Shown in pieces: positions 36,829 through 43,179 of a DNA stretch of 64,000 nucleotides (position 1 is its first letter; the number at the start of each line of letters is the position of its first letter). The position numbers were made by a program, and so were the translations under genes. The notes below the pieces were generated by a model, which saw only the letters and a program-made list of their open reading frames with translations, ran no database searches and had not been told where the DNA came from. This DNA comes from Brachyspira hampsonii 30446 (lineage in GTDB: Bacteria; Spirochaetota; Brachyspiria; Brachyspirales; Brachyspiraceae), in contig NZ_JH994110.1 in assembly GCF_000316195.1 (NCBI RefSeq), positions 392,728 through 456,727 of the forward strand. The letters are read 5' to 3'.

Positions 36829-36856
36829 TTGACATTTTATAGCTTTTTTCTATAAT
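36829..36856 (+). promoter_or_regulatory. Consensus promoter of the second vsp gene
   Basis: TTGACA at 36829-36834 and TATAAT at 36851-36856 match the sigma-70 consensus exactly with a 16-base spacer. The start site would be near 36863, giving a leader of about 90 nt. Confidence 0.88.
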
Positions 36857-36862
36857 AGTTTA

Positions 36863-36915
36863 TAGAGGATCTTTATGGTGTCTATTGAGTTTTTAAGCAA
36901 TCTCTCAATAGACAC
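36863..36915 (+). promoter_or_regulatory. Leader of the second vsp gene: anti-loop sequence and 12-bp hairpin
   Basis: TAGAGGATCTTTAT at 36863-36876 is the exact reverse complement of ATAAAGATCCTCTA, which occurs three times in the leader of the fourth vsp gene. A perfect hairpin follows: GTGTCTATTGAG (36878-36889) with CTCAATAGACAC (36904-36915), loop of 14 bases. There is no T tract, so it is more likely a stabilising or regulatory structure than a terminator. Confidence 0.8.
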
Positions 36916-36951
36916 TGTCAAAAGACTATAAAAAATTTAGGAGAAAAAACA

Positions 36952-38070
36952 ATGAAAAAAGTTTTATTGACAGCTATGGCTTTATTAACTATAGCTAGTG
37001 CATCTGCTTTCGGTATGTACGGTGACAGAGATTCTTGGATTGACTTCTTAGTACATGGCAACCAATTCAGAGCTAGAATGGATCAGTTAGGATTCGTTTT
37101 GGGTAACGGTACTATTAAAGGTACTTTTGGTTTTAGATCTCAGGCAGCATCAACTGCATTAGGAAACATACTTGCAACAGGTGCTGCAGATAATGTAGAT
37201 TTGACAACAACTATTTCTGGTGGTATAGGCTATACTTCTGAGCCTTTCGGTATCGGTGTTGGATACAGCTATACTTATGTAAATCAAAGATTAGGTGTTC
37301 ATACTCCTGTACTTATGATTAATGCTTTAAACAATAATTTGAGAATAGCTATACCTGTACAAGTTGCTGTTTCTGATAATGCTGATAATCAGATGAATGG
37401 AGGTACTCCAGATCCTTATAGAAAAAAAGATTATTTAGGTGTAAGTACTGATATTCAGATAAGATACTATACAGGCATAGATGCTTTCAATGCTATAAGA
37501 GTATACTTTAGATATGGACAAAATGGATATAAAAAAATGGATGTTTTTAATGGACCTAATGTTGACTATCTTGCTCAGTCACTTGGTTTTGAAACTAGAT
37601 TCTATTTCTTAAATACTCCTGTTGGAAATGTAACTGTTAATCCTTATTTGAAAGTTGCATTTGACACTGCTTTAGTTGGTAATAATTTTAAAGTAAGAGC
37701 TGGAGATTCTGTTGCAGGTTGGGCTAGAGGTAATAATCAGAAAGAATGGGATCAAGTTCCTTATGAGGTAACAGTTGCTGCCGTATTAGGTATCACTGCT
37801 AACAGCGATATAGTATCTCTTTATGTTGAGCCTTCTTTAGGTTATACAGCTGGTGGAAGCGGAAAAGAAAAAGGTGCTAATTATGATCCTACTGTAAGTC
37901 ATAAATTATACTGGGGAGCTTATACAGAGCTTTATATCAGACCTACTCAAGACTTAGAATGGTATTTCGAGATGGATGTTAATAACAGCGGAACAAAACA
38001 AGCTTCTAATATTCCTGTATACTTTGAAACTACTACAGGTATAACTTGGTATTTACCTGCTTTCAATTAA
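36952..38070 (+). CDS. vsp: Variable surface protein (Vsp) family, second gene
   Basis: The 372-residue outer membrane protein has the signal peptide MKKVLLTAMALLTIASASAF, then the Vsp core (NQFRARMDQLGFVLGNGTIK). A middle section carries the variable segments around 130-150 and 235-300, and the end is YIRPTQDLEWYFEMDVNN with final ITWYLPAFN. Its first 71 coding bases and the preceding RBS block are identical to those of the fourth vsp gene, pointing to recent duplication or gene conversion. It is driven by a consensus promoter with a structured leader. The third vsp gene follows after a shared terminator. Confidence 0.94.
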   Translation: MKKVLLTAMALLTIASASAFGMYGDRDSWIDFLVHGNQFRARMDQLGFVLGNGTIKGTFGFRSQAASTALGNILATGAADNVDLTTTISGGIGYTSEPFGIGVGYSYTYVNQRLGVHTPVLMINALNNNLRIAIPVQVAVSDNADNQMNGGTPDPYRKKDYLGVSTDIQIRYYTGIDAFNAIRVYFRYGQNGYKKMDVFNGPNVDYLAQSLGFETRFYFLNTPVGNVTVNPYLKVAFDTALVGNNFKVRAGDSVAGWARGNNQKEWDQVPYEVTVAAVLGITANSDIVSLYVEPSLGYTAGGSGKEKGANYDPTVSHKLYWGAYTELYIRPTQDLEWYFEMDVNNSGTKQASNIPVYFETTTGITWYLPAFN

Positions 38071-39410: not shown

Positions 39411-39733
39411 CTTGTTTCAAAACTACTTGACAAGATAGTATATAAAAATTTCATAATTCACAAAGTAATGTTTTATATGTTTTATAAATTGTTATTGTAG
39501 TATATAAACACACAGTTCTTTACCTGCCGACACCTGCCGACACCTGCCGACACCAAAGGTGGACTTCGTCGGCACGCTTCGCGAGGTGGACTTCGTATGG
39601 TCACCACCGAGTAGGTGCCTTGCCTATGGTACGCAGAGTAGGCGGCAAAATAAGTTGGTACAGAGCGGTGCATGACTGTGTACTTCGTAGGGCTAGTCCA
39701 CACAAAATTATGAAAAATTAGTTTTGAAACAAG
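39411..39733. mobile_element. GC-rich 323-base element with 15-bp terminal inverted repeats
   Basis: CTTGTTTCAAAACTA (39411-39425) and TAGTTTTGAAACAAG (39719-39733) are perfect inverted repeats. Inside them TTTCATAATT and AATTATGAAA are a second pair. The centre is much richer in G+C than its surroundings and has three tandem ACCTGCCGAC units (39522-39551) plus repeated GGTGGACTTCGT. Compared with the equivalent downstream regions of the first and fourth vsp genes (TTCAATAAACTTATAAAAA and TTCAATAGGCTTATAAAAA), the element interrupts a shared sequence, with AATA on both sides as a possible target duplication. It codes for no convincing protein, so it behaves like a MITE. Confidence 0.75.
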
Positions 39734-39798: not shown

Positions 39799-39813
39799 GG
39801 GTGGGCGGGCGGG
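39799..39813 (+). repeat. G-quadruplex motif in the vsp downstream repeat, copy 2
   Basis: GGGTGGGCGGGCGGG has four GGG tracts with one-base loops, the strictest form of a three-layer quadruplex. It is preceded by TTTAGGCTCATTTCGTTAAA and ATATTTGTTTAATTAA, shared with the other copies. The gap 39335-40676 contains this motif, the inverted-repeat element, a palindrome, and the promoter and leader of the fourth vsp gene; I see no gene there. Confidence 0.9.
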
Positions 39814-40301: not shown

Positions 40302-40330
40302 TTGACTTTTTTATGTAAATTTATTAGAAT
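40302..40330 (+). promoter_or_regulatory. Promoter of the fourth vsp gene
   Basis: TTGACT at 40302-40307 and TAGAAT at 40325-40330 are 17 bases apart. The predicted start near 40337 lies 340 bases before the ATG, leaving a long leader. Confidence 0.8.
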
Positions 40331-40335
40331 GAAAG

Positions 40336-40606
40336 TGTTGGTATGATATAGACATTAGAAAAAAGATTGCTTATAATGTCTATAACCAATGTTTGGAACA
40401 ATAAAGATCCTCTAAATCTTATTATTCCCAACTCAACACACTAGTAAAAGCAGCATAATTTTTCTGTTAGTTAACTGTTTTTACTGAGAATAAAGATCCT
40501 CTAAATCTTATTATTCTCACTGATTTTTTATAGTCCGTTAGAATTAAGCTTAAAGGTTCTAACGCATTCGGAAACAATAAAGATCCTCTAAATCTTTGTT
40601 GTTTCC
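40336..40606 (+). ncRNA. Structured leader of the fourth vsp gene: hairpin array with constant loops
   Basis: Three hairpins lie at 40393-40431, 40485-40518 and 40570-40606, spaced about 88 bases apart. All present the core ATAAAGATCCTCTAAATCTT (third copy ends TCTTTG), but the outer stems differ and still pair: TTGG/CCAA, TGAGAA/TTCTCA and GGAAACAA/TTGTTTCC. Other stems fill the spaces: GACATTA/TAATGTC near 40351-40380, AGTAAAA/TTTTACT at about 40443-40485, and CGTTAGAA/TTCTAACG (40536-40543 with 40557-40564). GTGTTG near 40336 can pair with CAACAC near 40433 to enclose the first group. The element is cis-acting leader RNA, not a separate gene as far as I can see. Confidence 0.8.
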
Positions 40607-40676
40607 TAAATTATTTTTGGAGTTACTGCTCATAAAGAGTATTAACTATATATAAAAAAATTTAGGAGAAAAAACA

Positions 40677-41894
40677 ATGAAAAAAGTTTTATTGACAGCT
40701 ATGGCTTTATTAACTATAGCTAGTGCATCTGCTTTCGGTATGTACGGAGACCAAGATTCTTGGATCGACTTTTTAGTACATGGAAATCAATTCAGAGCTA
40801 GAATGGATCAGTTAGGATTTGTTTTGGGTAACGGTACTATTAAAGGTACTTTCGGTTTTAGATCTCAAGCTTTAACAACTGCATTAGGCAACATACTTAC
40901 AACAGGTGCTACAGGTAATGTGGATTTAACAACAACTATTTCTGCTGGTATAGGCTACACTTCTGAGCCTTTCGGTATAGGTTTAGGCTACAACTATACT
41001 CATGTACATGACAGATTAGGTGTTCATACTCCTGTACTTATGATTAATGCTTTAAATAACAATTTAAGAATAGCTATTCCTTTACAAATAGCTACTTCTC
41101 AAAATCCTTATGATGAAGTATATAATGGTGCTCCATATAACACTGCAAAAGATTATTTAGGAATAAGCACTGATGTTCAAATAAGATATTACACAGGCAT
41201 AGATGCTTTCAATCAGATAAGAGTATATTTCAAATACGGACAAGCTTCATACAAAGATGAATTTTATGGTGTAAATTCTGATAATATGGCTCAGTCAGTT
41301 GGTTTTGAAACTAGATTCTATTTCTTAAATACTCCTGTTGGAAATGTAACAGTTAACCCTTATTTGAAAGTTGCTTTCAATACTTCTTTAAAAGGAAAAG
41401 CAAATAATAATCAAGTTAGAGCCGGCGGTGCTGGAGATGGTTCAATTGATAGAACTTACCCATATCCTGGATATAATGGCGGCTTCTTTAAAAGTGCAAG
41501 TGCTGACGGTAATTCTTATAAAGAAGAATGGGAAAAAAGCCCTTATGATGTAACTGTTGCTGCTGTATTAGGAATCACTGCTAACAGCGATATAGTTTCT
41601 CTTTATGTAGAGCCTGCTTTAGGTTATAAAGCTACTTACGGCGGAAAATCTAAAACTACTACTACTACTGCTGGTACTACAGACACTATTTCAGGTACTG
41701 ATCCTAAAGTAATACATAACTTATATTGGGGTGCTTACACAGAGCTTTATATCAGACCTACTCAAGACTTAGAATGGTACTTCGAGATGGATGTTAATAA
41801 TAATTCTGACACTACTACTACTGCTTATAATGGTGTTCCTGTTAAATTCGCAGCTACTACAGGTATAACTTGGTATTTACCTGCTTTCAATTAA
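40677..41894 (+). CDS. vsp: Variable surface protein (Vsp) family, fourth gene
   Basis: The 405-residue outer membrane protein is the longest of the set. Signal peptide and first coding bases are identical to those of the second vsp gene. The middle region has extra segments, a Gly/Tyr-rich stretch near 255-280 (RTYPYPGYNGGFFKSASADG) and a Thr-rich one (KSKTTTTTAGTTDTISGTD), both expected to be exposed loops. The end is the common YIRPTQDLEWYFEMDVNN and ITWYLPAFN. It has a long structured leader and the same TTAGGAG RBS. It is followed by the same terminator and a G-quadruplex motif. Confidence 0.94.
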   Translation: MKKVLLTAMALLTIASASAFGMYGDQDSWIDFLVHGNQFRARMDQLGFVLGNGTIKGTFGFRSQALTTALGNILTTGATGNVDLTTTISAGIGYTSEPFGIGLGYNYTHVHDRLGVHTPVLMINALNNNLRIAIPLQIATSQNPYDEVYNGAPYNTAKDYLGISTDVQIRYYTGIDAFNQIRVYFKYGQASYKDEFYGVNSDNMAQSVGFETRFYFLNTPVGNVTVNPYLKVAFNTSLKGKANNNQVRAGGAGDGSIDRTYPYPGYNGGFFKSASADGNSYKEEWEKSPYDVTVAAVLGITANSDIVSLYVEPALGYKATYGGKSKTTTTTAGTTDTISGTDPKVIHNLYWGAYTELYIRPTQDLEWYFEMDVNNNSDTTTTAYNGVPVKFAATTGITWYLPAFN

Positions 41895-42039: not shown

Positions 42040-42054
42040 GGGTGGGTGGGCGGG
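42040..42054 (+). repeat. G-quadruplex motif in the vsp downstream repeat, copy 3
   Basis: GGGTGGGTGGGCGGG has four GGG tracts and one-base loops. The upstream flank (TTTAGGCTCATTTCATTAAA, AATGTTTGTTTAACTA) matches the copies at 36451 and 39799. It ends 51 bases before the next coding region (42106). Confidence 0.9.
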
Positions 42055-42105: not shown

Positions 42106-43179
42106 ATGGACGGTTTCAAAAAATTAGAACAATTATTCAAAGAACCTATTACCATTGATAATATTAATAGGATTAATGACTGCTTTATACGATACTTATT
42201 TTCTGCCGATGGTTCTGAAAGTATAGTGCTGAGCTTTATAAACTCTGTTATGAAAGATTTAGACTTTGAAACTTTCGTAAAAGTAGAAATATTAAACCCT
42301 TTCAGCCTCTCAAAGTATTTAAAATCAAAAGAATCTATAATGGACATAAGATGCGTTACTGAAAGCGGACAGGTTGTAATTATAGAGATACAGCTTCAAG
42401 GAAATAATGAGTTTATTTACAGAAGTTTATTTTATTGGGCTAAAGGCTATAGTGTAATGCTTGATAAGGGTGAAGATTATAATAAACTTCAGGCTTTAAT
42501 CATCATTAATATTTTAGATTTTAAATTAATAGAAAATATTGATGATATACATACATGCTATGTGCTTAAAGAAATAAAGCATAATAATATTTTAACTGAT
42601 CATTGTCAGATACATTTCCTAGAACTTCCAAAATTCAATAATAATGCAAATATAAAAGATATAAAAAAAGAATTTCTGTCTTGGATAAAATTTTTTAAGG
42701 GGGAAGATATGAAAACATTATTAAAAGAAGATACAGTTTTTGAATTAGTAAAAGAGAAATCAGAATCTTTTCTTTGCGATAATCCATTAATCGATACCTA
42801 CAAACGAAAAGAGATAGATGAATATTTTAACAAAAGAATGATTGACTATGAAATAAAAAATGCTATGAATAAAGGAATTCAGCAAGGTATAGAGCAGGGT
42901 ATAGAAAAAGGTATAAAGCAAGGCATAGAACAGGGTATAGAAAAATGCATAGAGCAAGGCATCGAAAAAGGCATAGAAAGAGGTATAGAGCAAGGCATAG
43001 AACAGGGTATAGAAAAAGGTATAAAGCAAGGCATAGAGCAAGGTATAGAAAAAGGCATAGAGCAAGGTATAGAAAAGAGTAAAATTGAAATAGCAAGTAA
43101 TCTCAAAAAATCAGGAATAGATATTAAAATAATAAGTGAGAATACAGGATTAAGCATAGAGCAAATAGAAAAGCTATAA
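42106..43179 (+). CDS. Rpn-family PD-(D/E)xK nuclease with GIEQ-repeat tail
   Basis: The 357-residue protein belongs to the Rpn/'PD-(D/E)XK transposase' family of recombination-promoting nucleases. The nuclease core is D80, E94 and Q96 (MDIRCVTESGQVVIIEIQLQ), with FRALINV-like contexts replaced by LLFYWAKGYSVML. Residues 262-332 are short repeats of GIEQ/GIEK/GIKQ, likely one extended helix. The last 25 residues (ASNLKKSGIDIKIISENTGL and SIEQIEKL) form the usual DNA-binding-like end. The RBS is weak. It lies just beyond the vsp cluster. Confidence 0.85.
   Translation: MDGFKKLEQLFKEPITIDNINRINDCFIRYLFSADGSESIVLSFINSVMKDLDFETFVKVEILNPFSLSKYLKSKESIMDIRCVTESGQVVIIEIQLQGNNEFIYRSLFYWAKGYSVMLDKGEDYNKLQALIIINILDFKLIENIDDIHTCYVLKEIKHNNILTDHCQIHFLELPKFNNNANIKDIKKEFLSWIKFFKGEDMKTLLKEDTVFELVKEKSESFLCDNPLIDTYKRKEIDEYFNKRMIDYEIKNAMNKGIQQGIEQGIEKGIKQGIEQGIEKCIEQGIEKGIERGIEQGIEQGIEKGIKQGIEQGIEKGIEQGIEKSKIEIASNLKKSGIDIKIISENTGLSIEQIEKL
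42874..43078 (+). repeat. In-frame 12-bp repeat array in the Rpn-type gene
   Basis: Sixteen or so units of 12 bases of the type GGCATAGAGCAA / GGTATAGAAAAA code for GIEQ and GIEK. The unit length preserves the frame, so the tail length can change by slippage. Confidence 0.9.

Follow-up and report, generated by a model that had tools for sequence, protein, structure and literature searches.

A conserved, structured vsp mRNA leader in Brachyspira and its likely pairing in trans with the leader of a paralogous vsp gene

The window analysed here, a 64,000-nucleotide stretch of the Brachyspira hampsonii 30446 genome, contains the gene vsp4 and, upstream of it, three further genes, all four encoding variable surface proteins (PF05540). 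The product of vsp4 (40677–41894, plus strand) is 405 aa long (PF05540, 1e-113), and that of vsp2 (36952–38070, plus strand; PF05540, 1e-114) is 70% identical to it by blastp. Our subject is the leaders of these two genes – the long leader of vsp4, of about 340 nt, which we call L, and the short leader of vsp2, of about 90 nt, which we call S – and every leader feature described below lies on the plus strand.

The surroundings of vsp4 have features of their own. The interval between vsp3 and vsp4 includes a G+C-rich stretch (39520–39690), unlike its A+T-rich surroundings, in which CCTGCCGACA occurs three times in tandem together with related pieces. Perfect four-run G-quadruplex motifs, GGGTGGGCGGGCGGG and GGGTGGGTGGGCGGG, are found downstream of vsp3 and vsp4 (39799–39813 and 42040–42054) within a repeated element, with eight exact copies in the genome and none in shuffles of the window; they are reminiscent of the guanine quartet known at pilE in Neisseria. 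Directly downstream of vsp4 (42106–43179) lies a gene for a PD-(D/E)XK nuclease family transposase protein (PF12784), in which a 12-base unit is repeated in tandem at about 42821–43108.

L is preceded by a promoter (40302–40330) consisting of TTGACT (40302–40307) and TAGAAT (40325–40330) separated by 17 nt, which agrees with the consensus at 10 of 12 positions and is kept in all 13 homologues. The transcript would start at about 40336–40338, a position inferred from sequence alone, without 5'-end mapping. A second promoter-like match (TAGACA-17-TATAAT, 11/12) is present at 40349–40377, within the first hairpin, P0, and its -35 element is not conserved; the start near 40336 is favoured because the covarying P0 stem sits upstream of that match. 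The 359-nt L region as a whole folds at -93.3 kcal/mol, against -55.5 +/- 4.8 for shuffled versions (z = -8.0; 0/100 shuffles as low).

P0 itself (40337–40390) combines an outer stem, GUUGGU/ACCAAU – with double compensatory changes across species in five of its six pairs – and an inner stem, UAGACAUUA/UAAUGUCUA, and its apical loop displays the invariant motif AAAGAUUGC (40362–40370). Beyond it come three copies of the core ATAAAGATCCTCTAAATCTT, at 40401, 40490 and 40577 and thus 89 and 87 nt apart; the 3.04 Mb genome holds no other with fewer than two mismatches, its closest further match having two. Each copy belongs to a hairpin. Hairpin 1 (40395–40428; loop CCUCUAA) carries the core AUAAAGAUCCUCUA at 40401–40414 and is connected to hairpin 2 by an interval containing a spacer helix, GUAAAAGCAG/CUGUUUUUAC (40444–40484), with double compensatory changes in 6 of 10 pairs. 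Hairpin 2 (40486–40518; again with loop CCUCUAA, and the core at 40490–40503) is invariant throughout in the 11 full-length leaders aligned, and its 3' arm together with the following linker makes up a segment, UUCUCACUGAUUUUUUAUAGUC (40514–40535), which we call anti-RBS for reasons given below. A conserved spacer hairpin, CGUUAGAA/UUCUAACG (40536–40564), leads to hairpin 3, GGAAACAAUAAAGAU/AUCUUUGUUGUUUCC (40570–40606; core at 40577–40590), whose stem is kept though the core is degenerate in several species, the motif being lost in genomes G007, G020 and G002. The 3' end of hairpin 3 and the next bases form UUCCUAAAU (40603–40611), one part of an inverted repeat (I2) that is predicted to bury the vsp4 Shine–Dalgarno sequence once hairpin 3 opens. 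A last, covarying hairpin, AGUUACUGCUC/GAGUAUUAACU (40621–40647), also found in a third type of vsp leader in other species, precedes that Shine–Dalgarno sequence, recognised by its sequence as UUUAGGAG (40661–40668).

L is present in 13 of 26 Brachyspira genomes – among them B. innocens, B. alvinipulli, Brachyspira sp. G79 and two uncultured genomes – once per genome and always directly upstream of a vsp gene. Across four helices (39 pairs, ten genomes), standard pairs occupy 97.7% of cells, against 42–60% in slid controls. As the helix arms were picked by hand from per-genome folds, this figure is biased toward structure, and the count of two-sided changes is fairer: in the same helices and genomes, such changes occur at 14 pairs, in 44 cells as against 14.1 in shuffles. 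Covariation across species is strong in P0, the spacer helix between hairpins 1 and 2, the hairpin before the Shine–Dalgarno sequence and the inner part of hairpin 3. Loop sequences are retained even where, as in P0 and the spacer helix, almost the whole stem has changed. Stems are thus kept through compensatory change across species, as would be required of a structured mRNA leader, and L is very likely a conserved structured RNA leader. Structure alone does not account for the invariance of hairpin 2 and the near invariance of the linker that follows it.

Much of this had been anticipated in a sequence-only reading, which described a structured leader of the fourth vsp gene, about 340 nt long and expressed from a near-consensus promoter at 40302, with a core repeated at intervals of 89 and 87 bases and outer stems that differ in sequence yet pair in each of the three copies. 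The intervals, the promoter and the leader length held (the start being inferred), as did the pairing of the differing outer stems within this leader. The claim that the pattern reflects selection on structure also held, but the strong covariation across species is sited elsewhere than proposed: hairpin 2 is invariant across species, and the outer stems of hairpins 1 and 3 covary little. One finding that would have refuted the reading, homologues without conserved pairing, was looked for and not encountered; fold, compensatory change and the proximity of a vsp gene in 13/13 homologues all support a structured leader. Its remark that no riboswitch or leader family could be recognised held too, Rfam 15 giving no match at the gathering threshold in the window and none in either leader at E values up to 1.

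Some variants of L deserve mention. The leaders L155 (G009) and L152 (G024) have been shortened through deletion between the hairpin repeats, and in G008 a further vsp gene is preceded by an incomplete extra copy of L, L151; apart from this partial copy, the other vsp genes examined have neither L nor S.

The sequence-only reading assigned no function to the leader, and overlooked that its constant loops are complementary to the vsp2 leader, 3.5 kb upstream within the window. S has a promoter matching the consensus at 12 of 12 positions (TTGACA-16-TATAAT, 36829–36856), followed by a 5' tail, UAGAGGAUCUUUAU (36863–36876), a hairpin, GUGUCUAUUGAG/CUCAAUAGACAC (36878–36915), whose loop contains AAGCAAUCU (36895–36903), and a ribosome-binding region, GACUAUAAAAAAUUUAGGAGAA (36924–36945), just before the ATG. 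The hairpin loop is invariant in 13 genomes and unpaired in the predicted fold. S, too, is found in 13 Brachyspira genomes, one per genome and always just upstream of a vsp ATG, and the pattern used to recognise it, AGAGGATCTTT..AGCAATC, had no occurrences in a reversed-pattern control.

Both leaders are present in 11 genomes. L occurs without detectable S in G018 and G020, and S without L in G014 and G022, all four being drafts or MAGs; searches at up to two mismatches yielded no convincing S in G018 or G020 and no convincing L in the genomes without L, an L-like match in G022 (L028) having been rejected as not an L leader. The two leaders may be adjacent (G025), share a cluster (as in this window) or be separated by hundreds of kilobases (G009, G015), and since they lie apart in some genomes, any contact between them must be in trans.

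A leader peptide in S (MVSIEFLSNLSIDTVKRL) was considered and rejected, as its frame is shifted in G007, G009 and G015 and its ATG is lost in G002, G006 and G025. In G005 (L148, minus strand, about 2788), the vsp gene behind S is truncated after some 23 codons, the leader remaining intact. The third type of vsp leader, found in L138, L139, L140 and L141 (G016, G011, G013 and G010, respectively), has its own promoter and a GGAGTTAATGCCC/GGGTATAACT hairpin before the Shine–Dalgarno sequence, without the L hairpins and without the S element.

Three constant elements of L – the hairpin core, the P0 loop and the anti-RBS segment – are complementary to S; like the structures of the two leaders, this complementarity and its conservation are shown by computation. 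The core forms 14 perfect pairs with the S 5' tail in most genomes (G006 has one mismatch in the tail), and the longest complementary run between them reaches 13–15 nt in 10 of 11 genomes, against a null mean of about 8.3. The P0 loop, AGAUUGCUU, is complementary to the S loop, both are mostly unpaired in the predicted folds, and their interaction retains a net energy of about -8 kcal/mol after opening costs in all five genomes tested. The most extensive match is that of the anti-RBS segment with the S ribosome-binding site, Shine–Dalgarno sequence included: 20–22 pairs and -18.8 to -21.9 kcal/mol in 10/10 genomes (those with S and an intact segment), matched by 0/300 shuffles in each. S is also the best target of the segment in all ten, ahead of the vsp1 site (about -16 kcal/mol) and the site of L itself (-11.8 to -14.0), and pairing with the vsp3 ribosome-binding site is not above chance. 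The segment is single-copy in the genome at up to three mismatches. It has to be borne in mind that A- or U-rich complementarity comes cheap in so A+T-rich a genome; a random 95-nt leader would be expected to contain the tail motif 1e-5 times, the loop motif 5e-4 times and GACTATAAAAAA 8e-5 times.

The two loci also appear to change together. In G006 and G025, AUAGUC in L has become AUAAUC and GACUAU in S has become GAUUAU, switching one pair from G–C to A–U, and the change restores no pairing inside S. In G002, the U-run of L is a base shorter than elsewhere, and so is the A-linker of S. The S tail of G025 has CAGAGG where hairpin 3 of L has CCUCUG, the same site being a U–G pair in G006. Such covariation in trans is support rather than proof, as the independent events are few – one or two – and fall partly in apparently related lineages. 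The double duty of hairpin 2 and its linker, which serve two pairings, would explain why they cannot vary.

In 10 of 11 genomes, folding S and L together is favourable by 14.4 to 18.8 kcal/mol; in G024, which has lost the anti-RBS segment, the figure is 8.5. For G000, the predicted energy change on dimer formation is -15.5 kcal/mol, whereas shuffled S gives -6.3 +/- 2.1 and the leaders of vsp1 and vsp3 give about -5. In seven genomes, the model predicts a single antiparallel order, with the S tail on hairpin 3 and the S ribosome-binding region on the anti-RBS segment, and in the predicted dimers of 8 of 11 genomes, UUCCUAA released from hairpin 3 buries the Shine–Dalgarno sequence of L itself. 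The predicted dimer varies among species: in G007 and G015, the S Shine–Dalgarno sequence would be covered by another stretch of L, UCCUAAGU after hairpin 1, the best joint fold in G002 contains the tail pairing only, and hairpin 3, used in several dimers, is without its core motif in G007, G020 and G002. The P0 loop contact, being a pseudoknot, lies beyond what joint folding can model, so that the pairing is understated.

In the mechanism that we propose, first contact would be made between exposed loops – AGAUUGCUU in P0 with AAGCAAUCU in S, and a CCUCUAA loop of L with the S tail – and pairing would then extend to 14 bp at the tail and about 21 bp between UUCUCACUGAUUUUUUAUAGUC and the S ribosome-binding site. 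With L bound to it, S would be unable to load ribosomes, and the duplexes would probably be substrates for RNase III, both leading to repression of the vsp gene behind S. The S tail, in turn, would open hairpin 3, and the freed UUCCUAA would pair with the Shine–Dalgarno sequence of L, so that expression of the vsp gene behind L would fall too. Two outer-membrane Vsp proteins would in this way restrain each other or be kept at a balanced dosage.

These steps do not deserve equal confidence. It is likely that the vsp4 leader, as well as being a structured 5' UTR, works in trans on the vsp2 mRNA leader, and S and L likely do pair, although transcription, pairing in cells and the direction of control are inferred, without RNA data. 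Repression of S by L, its direction inferred without expression data, is a reading towards which we lean only slightly; mutual repression, likewise without RNA data, we regard as possible but fall just short of favouring. As the prediction common to the dimers is that S, and in most genomes L too, loses ribosome access, mutual restraint or balancing is nonetheless the likeliest role.

The rival that survives best, though still unlikely, is that L acts purely in cis: UUCUCACUGAUUUUUU, or UUCCUAAAU after hairpin 3, would bury the vsp4 Shine–Dalgarno sequence, the loops would bind a protein or small-molecule switch, and the match to the vsp2 leader would be a by-product of similar ribosome-binding sites. 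In its favour, the UUCUCACUGAUUUUUU segment also pairs with AAAAAAAUUUAGGAGAA of L itself (-11.8 to -14 kcal/mol), and inverted repeat I2 connects hairpin 3 with the Shine–Dalgarno sequence. Against it, the AUAGUC half matches S alone and changes along with S, and no account in cis is available for the 14-nt and 9-nt loop complementarities to S.

It is very unlikely that a third RNA or an RNA-binding protein reads the L loops, S being merely a decoy or second target. Redundancy among identical loops is a common mark of sites that a protein binds or that are recognised in multiple copies, and L is retained in G018 and G020 without detectable S; however, a search of the window's genome for the tail motif TAGAGGATCTTT returns, L aside, just S and one coding-like stretch. 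No separate small RNA complementary to the L loops was found, the exact tail-motif copies examined outside the leaders (in G000 and G018) not lying upstream of vsp genes.

Still less probable is that the shared motifs, AAAGATCCTCT and AAAGATTGC, are DNA operators of one regulator, placed on opposite strands in the two genes. A double-stranded site without orientation could be inverted in one gene, and the S tail lies at +1; yet the L motifs sit in apical loops of RNA-covarying hairpins, some 25–250 nt downstream of the start, and the anti-RBS segment and the covariation in trans would be left unexplained. Finally, that hairpin 2 or 3 is a conditional transcription terminator for vsp4 is all but excluded: hairpin 3 scores as terminator-like and a UUUUUU run follows hairpin 2, but the stems are A+U-rich rather than the G+C-rich stem with an immediate T run of an intrinsic terminator or attenuator, hairpin 3 is a weak match whose tail is interrupted by A residues, and the U-run begins 5 nt beyond hairpin 2 and is accounted for by S pairing.

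The preferred reading, pairing of the two leaders in trans, has partial precedents. Conserved complementarity to the target's ribosome-binding site, expected of a trans base-pairing regulator with RNAIII-like action, is present. In Staphylococcus aureus, RNAIII acts on coa through a duplex that masks the Shine–Dalgarno sequence, a distant loop–loop contact and RNase III cleavage (PMC2837412), much as is predicted for S and L. RNAIII is a multi-hairpin RNA with C-rich loops that is also an mRNA, features comparable with those of L. However, RNAIII operates as a free regulatory RNA on many targets (the coa and rot mRNAs among them), whereas L belongs to a surface-protein mRNA as its 5' UTR and has one evident target, the paralogue, and the two have no sequence relation (no Rfam match). 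In Listeria, the hly and prsA2 mRNAs also pair in trans outside their coding regions, but there the 3' UTR of one shields the other from RNase J1 (PMC8079631), while S and L would pair 5' UTR with 5' UTR over a ribosome-binding site, between paralogues and with repression as the predicted outcome. The plasmid kissing pairs CopA/CopT and RNAI/RNAII begin with loop–loop contact and proceed to an extended duplex, as in our model. Both members of such a pair are encoded in cis, by the two strands of a single locus, whereas S and L are both mRNA leaders from separate loci (for example, at 1.44 and 1.85 Mb in G009), and a cis-encoded antisense RNA of the CopA/CopT type is thus ruled out. A note of caution comes from Streptococcus pneumoniae, where the predicted mRNA–mRNA pairing of pspA with clpL was unconfirmed in vitro (PMC13173289).

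Among the outer-membrane proteins and antigens of Brachyspira, the Vsp proteins are the principal ones, and the set made varies by strain for unclear reasons (PMC5415613; PMC4955376). If the four genes are vspE–H in order, an inference from gene number and divergence alone, S would be the leader of vspF and L that of vspH. By proteomics, VspF is abundant and VspH undetected in strain WA1, and VspH is found and VspF undetected in B-78; as vspH is absent from WA1 and vspF from some strains (PMC5415613), these data are only compatible with our model and not evidence for it. VspH and VspF are the best represented Vsps in the B. hyodysenteriae exoproteome (PMC4955376), which argues against complete silencing across strains.

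In the open-access literature searched, we found no paper joining Brachyspira, vsp and promoter and nothing relevant on RNA regulation in Brachyspira; to our knowledge, neither regulation from 5' UTR to 5' UTR between paralogous surface-protein mRNAs nor such an RNA regulator in Brachyspira has been described there. A bolder reading, for and against which we see the case as evenly poised, is that two paralogous outer-membrane protein mRNAs directly cross-regulate via complementary, co-evolving 5' leaders, allowing a protein-free choice or balance of antigens without DNA rearrangement. If true, leader-to-leader pairing of vsp mRNAs would offer a concrete and testable cause of the differences between strains in the Vsps that they make.
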